A DNA stretch of 29,657 nucleotides from a virus, in the IMG/VR virus record IMGVR_UViG_3300032116_000978, positions 1-29,657 of that record. One strand, 5' to 3'. A model generated the notes under the pieces. That model was not told the origin of the DNA. It saw only the letters and a program-made list of their open reading frames with translations, and searched no databases. This document shows positions 12,631 through 17,691 of the stretch, piece after piece; the first letter of the stretch is position 1; the number at the start of each line of letters is the position of its first letter. A program made the position numbers and the translations under genes.

Positions 12631-14142
12631 TTACAAAGTTACTCCGTTTTTCTTAATGACTAAAGCTGGGTCTAATTTACGCATTCTGTCTACAATGACT
12701 TGGCAATACTTTGGGTCTAGTTCAATCCCGTAGCACTTGCGATTTAGTTGGTGGCTTGCTACCATTGTAGACCCTGAACCAAGAAACATATCTAAAATTA
12801 AACCCTTATCAGGGCAGCTTGATTTTATTGCCCTTTCGCATAAAGGTATTGGCTTAGGTGTTGCGTGACCTCCTTCATCTCCTTGCCTTAAATGTCTTTC
12901 AAACTTCCAAACGTTATTAAAATTATCGTGCGTGTTATTAAAGTAGGCGCGGGTTGAGTAAAAACTATTTTTGTATTCATCATGGCCGTACTTTATTTTT
13001 TCATATTCTTTTTTTATTTCTAAATATGGTTTTTCAAAAGCATTAATATTATTTTTAGCGCAATAATTTTTCCAAGAGTTGTAGGTTTCTTCAGTTGGCA
13101 TCATCCATTGACTTTTGTCAAACCAATGGCAACCGCTTTTTTCGCTATGTCCCGCCAACCTTTTACAATCCTTTATTGTAAAATTCGCCTTATTTTTCTC
13201 TTGATCTAAATAGTTAACAATAGAATCCCAGCCATGAAAATAATTATCTGCATTATTGTTAAATCCCTGAACTCCTAACATAACAAACAAACATTTTTCG
13301 TCTGCTATTGCATAGCTTCTAGTATTTTCACTATTCTGCCCTTGTCCGTTTCCTTTGTCCCAAGTTATCAAATTCCTAAATGTGGCTTTTTGCTCTTGAA
13401 TATACGGCTTAAGTATTTCACTATAAATATCCATTAAAGGCTCATCTATTCCCCAACAATACCAGCTACCGCTTTCTTTAAGGTGCATAAATTGCAAAGC
13501 AATCCATTCACGATTAAAATCAAGAAGGTCATCATAATTAAGGTTATCATTAAGCACCCCGTCTTTTTCTTTCTTCATTCCATAGGGAGGATCATTGTGG
13601 GCCATGTCCGCCTTCTCTCCATTCATTAGCTTATCAATCGCATCACTATCCGTACTATCTCCGCAAAGCAATCGATGGTCTCCTATTTGAATTAAATCCC
13701 CTAAAACAATATCGGTGTGCAGTTCCTCTGGCATCTCGTAATCATCCTCTTCAGCTGCTGGTATTTCGGTCACTCCAAAATCAGGAATATCTAAACCCCA
13801 TTCTTGAAGTTGGACCTCATCCCAATCGTTTGCTAATTGCTCCCAGTCCCATTCACCAAACCCCACGTTGTCTTTAATTATAAATTGTTTCTGCTCCTCC
13901 TCCGTTAACTCGTCTGCAAAAATGATTGGGATTTCTTTTAAACCCGCTTCTTTGCAAGCCTTTAGCCTCATGTTTCCACCTAGCACAATCATGTCAGCAT
14001 TTACAACAATGGGCCTAATTTCCAGCATCTTTGGAAACTCCTTTATTGATTTAACTAGCTTTTCAAACTTGTCATCCTTAATTAATCTTGGATTGTTTGG
14101 ATTGCTTTTTACTTCTGTAATTTTTACTTTTTGCGTTTTCAT
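12631..14142 (-). CDS. ParB-like domain fused to DNA methyltransferase
   Basis: The protein has 503 residues. Residues 5-95 form a ParB-like domain with GGNMRLKACKEAG (55-67). The methyltransferase part has NDPPY (183-187), then HATPKP (426-431) and the SAM-binding DMFLGSGST (451-459) followed by YGIELDPKYC, so the catalytic motif precedes the SAM motif. DPPY points to amino-methylation of adenine or cytosine N4. A long insertion (about 320-410) with GHSEKSGCHWFDKSQW separates the two and may carry target recognition. Phages use such enzymes to resist host restriction or mark pac sites. It lies directly upstream of the terminase genes and overlaps the second methyltransferase by ATGA. Confidence 0.9.
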   Translation of the reverse strand: MKTQKVKITEVKSNPNNPRLIKDDKFEKLVKSIKEFPKMLEIRPIVVNADMIVLGGNMRLKACKEAGLKEIPIIFADELTEEEQKQFIIKDNVGFGEWDWEQLANDWDEVQLQEWGLDIPDFGVTEIPAAEEDDYEMPEELHTDIVLGDLIQIGDHRLLCGDSTDSDAIDKLMNGEKADMAHNDPPYGMKKEKDGVLNDNLNYDDLLDFNREWIALQFMHLKESGSWYCWGIDEPLMDIYSEILKPYIQEQKATFRNLITWDKGNGQGQNSENTRSYAIADEKCLFVMLGVQGFNNNADNYFHGWDSIVNYLDQEKNKANFTIKDCKRLAGHSEKSGCHWFDKSQWMMPTEETYNSWKNYCAKNNINAFEKPYLEIKKEYEKIKYGHDEYKNSFYSTRAYFNNTHDNFNNVWKFERHLRQGDEGGHATPKPIPLCERAIKSSCPDKGLILDMFLGSGSTMVASHQLNRKCYGIELDPKYCQVIVDRMRKLDPALVIKKNGVTL

Positions 14143-15029: not shown

Positions 15030-15225
15030 CTTTTCGTCTAATTATAACCTCCAAACCAATTGCCTCGCAAATCTGTCTAAGTCTGTTTAGGCTTATAGAT
15101 TCCCAACCATTTTCCACCTGGTTAATTGGGGCCAAAGATAATCCTATTTTGTCGGCCAATTGCTCCTGGGTGTAGCCAGCGGCTTTGCGCGCTTTTCGTA
15201 TAAATAAACCCTCGTATATGCTCAT
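15022..15225 (-). CDS. XRE-family HTH regulator
   Basis: The 67-residue protein is almost entirely a Cro/CI-type helix-turn-helix: IRKARKAAGYTQEQLADKIGLSLAP.., with VENG at about 37-40 and LRQICEAIGLEVIIRRKDD. It lacks a protease or dimerisation domain, so it is Cro-like in size. It has its own promoter at 15242-15269, which contains two GGAATC sites one helical turn apart, a plausible autoregulatory operator. The same 11-base motif occurs upstream of the early operon at 20172-20182. Confidence 0.88.
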   Translation of the reverse strand: MSIYEGLFIRKARKAAGYTQEQLADKIGLSLAPINQVENGWESISLNRLRQICEAIGLEVIIRRKDD

Positions 15226-16108: not shown

Positions 16109-16738
16109 TTAAATTAATTGATCTAAATTTTTATTGTCCTTAATTGCCTGTAAAATAAACAATTTCCAAATCTTATTCTTTGTCTTGGCGCCAACTGTCG
16201 ACTCCTCAACGTACCTGGTTGTTAACCGCAATTCCTTACGAACGTCGCTTTCTATTTCTTGCACGTTAAACTCCCAAGGTTTTAAAATTCCTTTCTCTTG
16301 GAACTTGTTAAACCAGTACATCCCCCAATCAGCTAAATGCTTGCAATTTCCAGTTTCTTTGGCTTCCTGGTAATTGTCTCTAAAGGTTTGCTTTCCAACT
16401 TCAATCCAGTACGCAATCTCTTCATTGGTTGGCTCTTTTTCTTTATTGTTTAAAGCTTGGACCTCCTGGACAATTTGACTTTGGTGATGGGCGTAATATT
16501 GATTGATCCAAACGCTTACGGTCTTTTCGTTAACGTGGTAAAAATCGCCGTACTGGCCACGCATTCCAGCGTGTAGAATATAGTTTACTCGGTCCTCGGT
16601 CATCCAGCCATAAGAGCCAAATAATTTGCTGAGGCATCCAAGTAATTCGTTTCCCTCTTCTTTTTTGTATTCCTTAAATTGTTTAAGGCCACAAACAAAC
16701 TCCATTTTTCGGAGGTGCGTTAAAATTGTCTCATTCAT
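16109..16738 (-). CDS. Early protein of unknown function, 209 residues
   Basis: The protein was not recognised. It is soluble and mostly helical, with a conserved-looking aromatic core: LFGSYGWMTEDRVNYILHAGMRGQYGDFYHV and KTVSVWINQYYAHH, followed by a charged helix (EEIAYWIEVGKQTF) and a C-terminal helical part. The first segments could form a DNA-binding helix cluster. It overlaps the upstream replication-type gene by 8 bases and precedes the SSB-tip protein, which puts it with replication/recombination functions. No nucleotide-binding loop, zinc motif or membrane segment is visible. Confidence 0.7.
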   Translation of the reverse strand: MNETILTHLRKMEFVCGLKQFKEYKKEEGNELLGCLSKLFGSYGWMTEDRVNYILHAGMRGQYGDFYHVNEKTVSVWINQYYAHHQSQIVQEVQALNNKEKEPTNEEIAYWIEVGKQTFRDNYQEAKETGNCKHLADWGMYWFNKFQEKGILKPWEFNVQEIESDVRKELRLTTRYVEESTVGAKTKNKIWKLFILQAIKDNKNLDQLI

Positions 16739-17420
16739 TTTTTAGTAGTTTTTGTTTTTGTAAATCCTCGTAAAGCTCATCAAAGACGTTGTATGTTTTT
16801 GACTTTTCCGCTGTCTTGTAATTAGTTTTTAAATTATTGCCAATGTAAAGATTAAAACTATTTTCGGCCTTGGCAATTGTCATGCTTTCGCCTTCTTTTA
16901 AAACCGCCCATTTTTTAAACAATTTTTTAATGGTATCTGAATCCGTCGAATGTACCTCGGCCATTCTTTCAAAGTAAGGACGTTTTAAAGGCTTTTCTTT
17001 TTTAAAATCATTAAAAATATCCTCTAAAGAAAAAAGCGCGCCAGCGCCTATTTGTTTATTTACATTTCCATTTACATTAACATTATCATTTACATTACCA
17101 TTTACATTTACATTTACATTATCACCGAACGAAATTGAACGCTCGTTAACGCTCGTTAAAGTTCGTTGCCGCGATTCAACGGATTTTTTTGCCGCATCCT
17201 TTCGTTGTTCTTGCTTATTTTCCCAAGTTTTAAGGTCTCTTTTAAGCTGGGTCTTAATTGGTAAAAATGCCACCTTTAAAAGTTTGTCGTTTGTTATTGG
17301 GTCCTCATCGTTAACATAAGCGAAAATATGCTTAATTAACTTGCCAGCATCCTCGTCGGAAAGCTCATCAAATACTTCTCTTTGATCCGTGTAAAGTAAA
17401 AATGATTTTTTGCCTTGCAT
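16731..17420 (-). CDS. DUF6291-like phage replication protein
   Basis: The 229-residue protein starts MQGKKSFLLYTDQREVFDELSD.., DAGKLIKHIFAYVNDE, resembling the N-terminal DUF6291 domain found in replication modules of Bacteroidota phages. Residues about 99-122 are a low-complexity Asn/Val run (NVNGNVNDNVN), from tandem hexamers. The C-terminal domain (about 135-205) has KKEKPLKRPYFERMAEVH and helices similar in style to replication initiator or loader proteins. Just before the Asn/Val run, the coding DNA carries three iteron-like 10-mers (17138-17167). The gene is preceded by the structured RNA leader and terminator at 17431-17515, so its expression is probably attenuated. Confidence 0.72.
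   Translation of the reverse strand: MQGKKSFLLYTDQREVFDELSDEDAGKLIKHIFAYVNDEDPITNDKLLKVAFLPIKTQLKRDLKTWENKQEQRKDAAKKSVESRQRTLTSVNERSISFGDNVNVNVNGNVNDNVNVNGNVNKQIGAGALFSLEDIFNDFKKEKPLKRPYFERMAEVHSTDSDTIKKLFKKWAVLKEGESMTIAKAENSFNLYIGNNLKTNYKTAEKSKTYNVFDELYEDLQKQKLLKNE
17056..17123. repeat. Degenerate TTTACA hexamer tract, AT-rich
   Basis: About eleven hexamers of the TTTACA/TTACAT type, degenerate at some copies, in frame with the coding sequence. They encode alternating Asn-Val with Gly, Asp or Lys. Copy changes would keep the frame, so this is a length-variable linker rather than a phase switch. The tract is AT-rich and adjoins the 10-mer repeats at 17138-17167. Confidence 0.75.
17138..17167. 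repeat. Three tandem iteron-like 10-mers
   Basis: AACGCTCGTT (17138-17147), AACGCTCGTT (17148-17157) and AAAGTTCGTT (17158-17167) in tandem. The first two are themselves dyads (AACG-CT-CGTT). The 10-base period equals about one helical turn, a common form for initiator-binding sites. They lie next to the AT-rich hexamer tract, inside the putative replication gene. Confidence 0.65.
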
Positions 17421-17430
17421 TTTTTTAAAT

Positions 17431-17463
17431 AAAAAAACCCAACTGGTGGTAGACAGTCGGGTT
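17431..17463 (-). terminator. Terminator hairpin P3 of the leader
   Basis: The 8-bp stem CCCGACTG/CAGTTGGG, extended by A-U pairs at its base, is followed by TTTTTTTATTT on the minus strand. It lies only 18 bases before the ATG at 17420. Confidence 0.75.
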
Positions 17464-17515
17464 CAGGTTAAGGTTAACCTATGGAATTATTCTAGCTACC
17501 ACCCTGGAATAATTC
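17431..17515 (-). ncRNA. Structured leader RNA / attenuator with loop-loop pairing
   Basis: An 85-base RNA is predicted between a promoter (17522-17549) and the ATG at 17420. Stem P1: GAATTATTC (17515-17507) with GAATAATTC (17492-17484), 14-base loop. P2: AGGTTA with TAACCT (17480-17466). P3: CCCGACTG (17461-17454) with CAGTTGGG (17445-17438), one G-U pair, followed by seven T, an intrinsic terminator. The P1 loop contains GTGGTAG (17502-17496), which is exactly complementary to CTACCAC (17452-17446) in the P3 loop. The predicted transcription start falls at the first base of P1. This could be a ligand- or protein-controlled attenuator of the replication gene, or a free small RNA. I do not recognise a known riboswitch class. 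Confidence 0.7.
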
Positions 17516-17521
17516 GATACA

Positions 17522-17549
17522 CAAATATAAATCTTTTTGATTTATCCAA
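17522..17549 (-). promoter_or_regulatory. Bacteroidota-type promoter of the leader RNA
   Basis: TTG (17549-17547), 17-base spacer, TATATTTG (17529-17522). This is the same layout and the same -7 box as the XRE promoter at 15242-15269. It overlaps the last codons of the 49-residue HTH gene. Confidence 0.65.
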
Positions 17550-17691
17550 CCAGGCAACGCTTCTTTAGTTGAAAATAAATACAACCGTATGAAAGACCCA
17601 TTTCTTGCGCAATGACTTTAATTTGCTTTCGGTCTTGCCAGGCTTCAAAGATTAACTCTTTTTCGTATTCTGTTAAATTGCGTCCCCTCAT
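17542..17691 (-). CDS. 49-residue HTH microprotein
   Basis: The frame encodes MRGRNLTEYEKELIFEAW.. with a likely helix-turn-helix QIKVIAQEMGLSYGCIYFQLKKR (about 23-45), reminiscent of resolvase or sigma region 4 type HTH units. Its ATG overlaps the stop of the upstream gene as ATGA, which supports it as a translated gene. The start of the downstream leader promoter lies in its 3' end. It could act on nearby early promoters. Confidence 0.72.
   Translation of the reverse strand: MRGRNLTEYEKELIFEAWQDRKQIKVIAQEMGLSYGCIYFQLKKRCLVG

Follow-up and report, generated by a model that had tools for sequence, protein, structure and literature searches.

Many uncultured phages of Bacteroidota carry a small, promoter-driven RNA with mutually matching hairpin loops ahead of a replication-initiator gene. 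The RNA described here is encoded on the minus strand of a 29,657-base IMG/VR phage record, which was analysed over its whole length (the window). In the absence of RNA or functional data, we assign a probability of about 0.52 to the reading preferred here, namely that this terminated RNA of ~87 nt controls the replication initiator via type-specific loop-loop pairing. No account of the RNA was found in the literature, subscription publications being outside the scope of the search.

Results

A short terminated transcript is predicted ahead of a replication-initiator gene

The original prediction placed a promoter, three stems, a terminator ending in seven T residues and an ATG at positions 17549 to 17431, and all of these elements were located, on the minus strand. 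The promoter, TTG-N17-TATATTTG, is of the sigma-A type. Its -33 element TTG (17547-17549) overlaps the end of a directly upstream gene for a small HTH protein (17542-17691, minus strand; 49 aa; weak, sub-cut-off match to PF13518), and its -7 element TATATTTG (17522-17529) fits the consensus TAnnTTTG, which together meets the criterion for Bacteroidota sigma-A promoters. Since the flavobacterial consensus has been mapped at -12 to -5 in Flavobacterium (PMC9723704), the -7 box was set accordingly, which yields a predicted +1 at 17517. A transcript start at the first base of hairpin P1, as originally proposed, is thereby met to within ~2 nt but not exactly, the predicted +1 lying two bases before P1. 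The -7 box was found in 116 of 118 distinct loci, when T/C and G/A were tolerated at the last two bases, and a TTG is present 16-21 nt ahead of the box in 81 of these 116. From +1 to the end of the T-run (17431-17437), the predicted small RNA or leader transcript comprises ~87 nt (17431-17517, both ends predicted). Hairpin P3 and the T-run fulfil the criterion for an intrinsic (Rho-independent) terminator, i.e. a G+C-rich hairpin followed by T residues, termination itself being inferred, and the T-run is kept in the displayed protein-fetched relatives. The ATG start codon (17420-17418) follows 18 nt past the P3 stem, which is the distance originally given, and 10 nt past the T-run.

Folding of positions 17520-17425 yielded -30.3 kcal/mol (z = -4.25 versus dinucleotide shuffles; 0 of 200 shuffles equally stable) and three hairpins. 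P1 (17484-17515; fold and covariation) exposes the word GTGGTAG (17502-17496) in its loop (17503-17496), P2 (17465-17480; fold and relatives) has the sequence AGGTTA-ACCT-TAACCT, its stem changing from GGTTAA..TTAACC to GGTGAA..TTCACC in relatives, and the terminator stem P3 (17435-17464; fold and covariation) presents CTACCAC (17452-17446) in its loop (17453-17446). Sequence and fold bore out the predicted exact complementarity of the two loops, which extends to 8 bp when P3 opens by one pair and its closing C is included. Neither word occurs again anywhere in the window. No known class had been recognised by eye, and a comparison with Rfam 15 gave zero matches at gathering score, while a permissive search returned chance-level weak matches only. 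The criterion of a conserved unpaired ligand core, typical of riboswitches, failed in our alignment (A1), in which conserved bases left unpaired belong mainly to the words GU..AG and CU..AC, which pair mutually. The original prediction had not decided between an attenuator, a ligand- or protein-bound RNA and a small RNA; the allele-swap data given below speak for a device of RNA-RNA recognition rather than for a riboswitch that binds a ligand.

The gene following the RNA (16731-17420, minus strand) encodes a replication-initiator-type, primosomal-type protein of 229 aa with a DUF6291 N-terminus (PF19808, E 3e-24; phrog_6451, primosomal protein, E 1e-5). Across relatives, at least four families that share no N-terminal homology are represented among the downstream initiators (DUF6291; Lin1244_N/replication initiation protein; DnaD-like helicase loader; a MANKF..ENHL family), and their matches to primosomal, replication-initiation and DnaD-like helicase-loader PHROGs support the earlier assignment of the RNA to a position before a replication gene. 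By eye, a C-terminal tail, NVFDE.YEDLQKQKHL.NE, is common to the N-terminally unrelated replication proteins of two relatives (L082, L081) and of the window, as if origin-specific N-terminal domains had been swapped onto one helicase-contact tail. The initiator operon also encodes Erf, a Gam-like protein, HTH proteins and a RusA-like protein. The record derives from a Caudoviricetes phage, because genes for capsid, portal, terminase, S74 tail fibre and M15 peptidase are present. Elsewhere, the window encodes a small Cro-like HTH_3 protein (15049-15201, minus strand), shared by 29 of the 30 related phage records, and a fusion of a ParB-N domain with an N6/N4 DNA methyltransferase (12631-14142, minus strand; observed in the window). 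Tyrosine or serine integrases (PF00589, PF00239) were detected in none of the 30 related records, which are possibly incomplete.

The RNA keeps its place in related phages

Two protein searches blind to the RNA were carried out. Where upstream sequence had been retained, the RNA precedes the initiator gene in 71 of 71 relatives of the DUF6291 protein, and it lies at the same place, directly downstream of the HTH gene, in all 80 relatives fetched by means of the upstream HTH protein. Our claims on conservation rest on these protein-fetched sets, because loci fetched by pattern are biased to known loops. The search of related phages with a covariance model, advised in the original prediction, recovered the RNA in every one of 30 phage records, with exactly one copy in each; in the window the model matched 17517-17432 with 87.8 bits. 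The spacing to the initiator genes is fixed at 5-13 nt, and the RNA keeps its place despite the non-homologous N-termini encoded behind it. As far as sequence can tell, these data establish a structured RNA whose position at the start of the replication module is fixed. In more distant members, inspection of the sequences revealed the RNA before other small genes or initiators, with helicase, helicase-loader or initiator-like genes often next.

No credible copy was obtained with the covariance model in 395 Bacteroidota genomes. Three weak matches therein were spurious, as they have no kissing pair and adjoin an apparent L11 ribosomal gene, and a pattern match in a Bacteroidales MAG (L162) was likewise discarded, the kissing terminator being missing. 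The RNA is absent from five cultured phages of Flavobacteriaceae whose DUF6291 proteins are distant, and no DUF6291 relatives were found on plasmids.

The two loops covary as an exact pair

In P1, changes on both sides were observed in 7 of 11 pairs, and 99.2% of the cells of P1 plus the kissing interaction are paired, versus 83.7% in shuffles and 40-54% when the alignment was slid. Direct use of RNAalifold on the MAFFT alignment recovered P1 only, because P3 was misaligned between groups. Covariation of P3 was therefore counted on a gapless subset of 30 sequences, in which 98.3% of cells are paired versus 87.7% in shuffles. When the alignment of the kissing words was anchored at the 3' G of the P1 word, 336 of 336 cells were Watson-Crick pairs without a single G-U, and each of the three central pairs was changed on both sides. 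The rows underlying these 336 cells had been pre-selected for an exact 7-base match; the blind, protein-fetched leaders all show the 7-bp match too. G-U pairs do occur in the stems of P1 and P3, but never in the kiss. Thus, neither a lack of covariation in homologues nor a loss of the loop match in relatives, each named beforehand as refuting, was encountered: covariation is strong in P1, P3 and the kiss, and the match is kept in all relatives.

The loop pair always reads 5'-GU-NNN-AG-3' with 5'-CU-N'N'N'-AC-3', and six triplets (AGG, GGU, GAG, GGA, CGG and CGC) account for 89 distinct RNAs. Patterns with other triplets or loop frames brought up no new address; one distant locus (L368) repeats AGG in another loop frame. 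In a 6x6 matrix of loop-only duplex energies, cognate combinations ranged from -9.0 to -14.3 and non-cognate ones from -1.4 to -9.3 kcal/mol, the cognate loops pairing best in every row and column. The loop match is far beyond chance, because complementarity is kept in every relative across six loop sequences, and on this comparative evidence the kissing complementarity is under selection.

Five distant, pattern-found and hence biased loci (L368:2065, L220, L178, L174 and L173) have the same kissing words in the context of other P1 and P2 stems, i.e. the loop words outlast the stems in these distant members; the genes after the RNA are cytosine methyltransferase-like, HNH-like, YopX-like or of the initiator type. 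A different short RNA-like element was noticed in L358:322 and L362:2663, where the complementary 7-base words GTCGAAG/CTTCGAC and a T-run precede a gene that is antirepressor-like. It adjoins tRNA genes in a C4-like layout and has no Rfam match.

Loop pairs are exchanged as units between near-identical phages

On a tree of 65 DUF6291 proteins comprising all six types, the loop type changed at least 24 times, and at least 17 and 7 changes were counted on two other initiator trees. The loci L024 and L025 illustrate how such changes come about: both flanks are ~97% identical, while the RNAs are only 68% identical and carry different loop pairs. The same pattern is seen for L122/L132, L159/L295, L070/L071 and L040/L041. 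Altogether, 45 pairs of loci, not all of them independent, have both flanks at least 90% identical (90-97%). In the 33 pairs of the same type, RNA identity is 0.968-1.0 and on average at or above that of the flanks, whereas it drops to 0.643-0.806 in the 12 pairs of different type, where the RNA is the lowest window in 12 of 12. Another route of type change is represented by L057 and L058, in which a change from GGU to GGA is matched by compensating changes in P3 and the partner loop. These comparisons demonstrate, from sequence alone, that the loop pair is exchanged as a unit between near-identical phages. We infer that the RNA variants are discrete alleles of a specificity tag, with conservation within types and replacement between types as under diversifying selection, although alleles could instead travel by recombination for other reasons.

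Pairing between molecules is favored over pairing in cis

A separate target search detected no enrichment of the loop words elsewhere in the phage genomes. An antisense promoter is not conserved either, an opposite-strand TAnnTTTG, the only promoter type scanned, being present in 8 of 118 loci. Therefore, the two loops appear to be each other's partner. Pairing in cis is possible, as both loops reside on one RNA. However, by a crude estimate, the linkers with P2 formed span at most 31-70 Å, while a coaxial cis arrangement of P1, kiss and P3 needs 78-90 Å (96 of 96 folds). In a reciprocal dimer, in which P1 pairs with P3' and P3 with P1', the two bases of one molecule would lie side by side, which is compatible with short linkers. 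The modeled distances thus favor pairing between molecules, and kissing probably takes place in trans; cis versus trans pairing is untested, and since a bent complex or a melted P2 could overturn the linker estimate, kissing in cis is not excluded.

These considerations bear directly on the best-surviving alternative, an attenuator operating in cis only. Here, the P1-P3 kiss within one molecule would steady the terminator, a phage protein, a host protein or the upstream HTH protein would open it, and the loop pair would drift by compensation and recombination. Covariation alone is equally expected in this case, and both loops are always found on one short RNA. Apart from the linkers, which look too short with P2 formed, it is the lack of G-U intermediates in the kiss, as opposed to the stems, and the replacement of whole alleles amid near-identical flanks, unlike neutral compensation, that make us regard a purely cis-acting device as unlikely, if still a serious contender.

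Discussion

We infer that the RNA attenuates the replication initiator by way of RNA-RNA kissing and, in doing so, is type-specific and senses dose. According to this model, most transcripts would end at P3 and release free RNA, while read-through would generate the initiator mRNA. As the terminator is located directly before the start codon of the initiator gene, transcription from the RNA's own promoter as well as from upstream genes must read through it. The terminated RNA would build up with genome copies. Upon rising copy number, or once a second phage that shares the loop type has entered, free RNA would kiss leaders of its own type, its P1 loop pairing with the P3 (terminator) loop of the leader and its P3 loop with the P1 loop. 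On nascent leaders, this homotypic kiss may strengthen termination, or it may occlude the start codon ~20 nt downstream or otherwise hinder translation initiation. Replication initiation would be turned down as the outcome, in a copy-dependent and type-specific manner. The negative sign of this control is a guess from the P4 and plasmid analogues; the Gifsy-1 IsrK RNA acts positively in trans (PMC4825925), i.e. with the opposite sign. The three variable loop bases would serve as address, to which phages with another address would not respond, and address swaps would therefore permit escape from cross-control in co-infection.

Set-wise swapping of the loop pair suggests a self/non-self recognition tag controlling phage replication. 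Immunity of the classical prophage kind is unlikely, and the benefit must be gained in the course of infection, because no integrase was found in the 30 records and no credible copy in the 395 genomes. Since these phages appear to lack lysogeny, the address would count during co-infection and for shutting down early replication. We therefore put forward, tentatively and with somewhat more doubt than belief, that one sense RNA, on which the two halves of a three-base address are combined, pairs with its own second copy and shuts off its own initiator, such that phages sort into replication-compatibility groups in co-infection, without lysogeny or antisense RNA.

Other roles were considered. The RNA could be a free small RNA with another target, or one to which a phage or host protein binds, an arms race with a host factor then accounting for the diversity of the loops. 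Its own promoter and terminator and its hypervariability would fit, but the rest of the phage genome shows no enrichment of the loop words (host transcripts were outside the scope), the two loops keep their mutual match, and the fixed place 5-13 nt before initiator genes would not be expected, which renders such a role distinctly unlikely. Still less probable is an origin-linked RNA, acting as primer or forming an R-loop in a ColE1-like manner at an origin near the initiator gene. The RNA sits at the head of the replication module, the initiator gene contains iteron-like repeats (17058-17167; 10.5 copies of ATTTAC and three of AACGCTCGTT), from which a possible origin can only be inferred, and RNA-based origins occur in extrachromosomal mycobacteriophage prophages (PMC7157519). 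However, a strong terminator with T-run separates the RNA from the iterons, an initiator protein is present, and the kissing types would be left unexplained. Both hexamer repeats code for an N/V-rich linker of the initiator. A covarying, intermolecular pair of complementary loops is also a feature of the phi29 pRNA, by which a packaging RNA multimerises, but there is no Rfam match to pRNA, the packaging genes are of the siphophage kind, with portal and a Terminase_3 large subunit, rather than encoding a phi29-type ATPase, and the neighbours are replication and not packaging genes, so that we give this explanation hardly any credit. Finally, intrinsic terminators are common between operons, but an ordinary terminator with a chance loop match is refuted by complementarity conserved with six loop sequences and 0 mismatches.

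The proposed kissing attenuator resembles several known systems. The CI RNA of satellite phage P4, a product of the replication-operon leader, pairs with complementary sequences in that leader and thereby causes premature termination of replication genes (PMC4825925). The phage RNA similarly is a small RNA complementary to sites in a replication-gene leader, as its P1 and P3 loops meet this criterion. Unlike CI, which is processed from a longer transcript and whose targets flank it (seqA and seqC), it has its own promoter, its target loop is the terminator loop within the RNA, and neither integrase nor lysogeny was detected (0 of 30 possibly incomplete records). In the C4 RNA of phages P1 and P7, the complementary sequences probably reside in loops and allelic differences underlie heteroimmunity (PMC12197685), which parallels the complementary, allelic loops described here; however, C4 blocks translation of an antirepressor, whereas the gene controlled here would be a replication initiator, and neither criterion for C4 (Rfam C4 match, downstream ant gene) is met. 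Control of a replication initiator by kissing loops is known from plasmid RNAI-type incompatibility RNAs: pT181 attenuates via a kissing hairpin (PMC3753616), in IncB/O three bases of the top loop are crucial for the initial kiss, and a single base change renders IncK1 and IncK2 compatible (PMC10724649). These three bases closely parallel the three variable loop bases of the phage RNA, but the plasmids employ an antisense RNA from the opposite strand, while the phage RNA carries both partners on the sense strand. The use of a single promoter for a terminated small RNA and a read-through mRNA, on which the former acts in trans, has been described for IsrK (PMC4825925) and is proposed here as well; IsrK, however, activates translation through an upstream ORF and differs in target gene and structure. 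Natural homo-oligomeric RNAs with covarying intermolecular contacts including kissing loops are exemplified by the phage RNAs ROOL and GOLLD and by OLE (PMC12286853), but these are large, ornate RNAs that form cages or dimers and have unknown function, unlike an attenuator leader of ~87 nt. The phage RNA thus resembles P4 CI, P1/P7 C4 and plasmid RNAI but belongs to none of them, as there is no Rfam match, antisense strand or integrase.

If our model is true, a compatibility system encoded in RNA would have to be counted among the features of a large group of uncultured phages of Bacteroidota. With a specificity of three base pairs and six natural alleles, self-recognition, competition in co-infection and turnover of alleles would become directly testable, and the RNAs would offer ready-made orthogonal attenuators.
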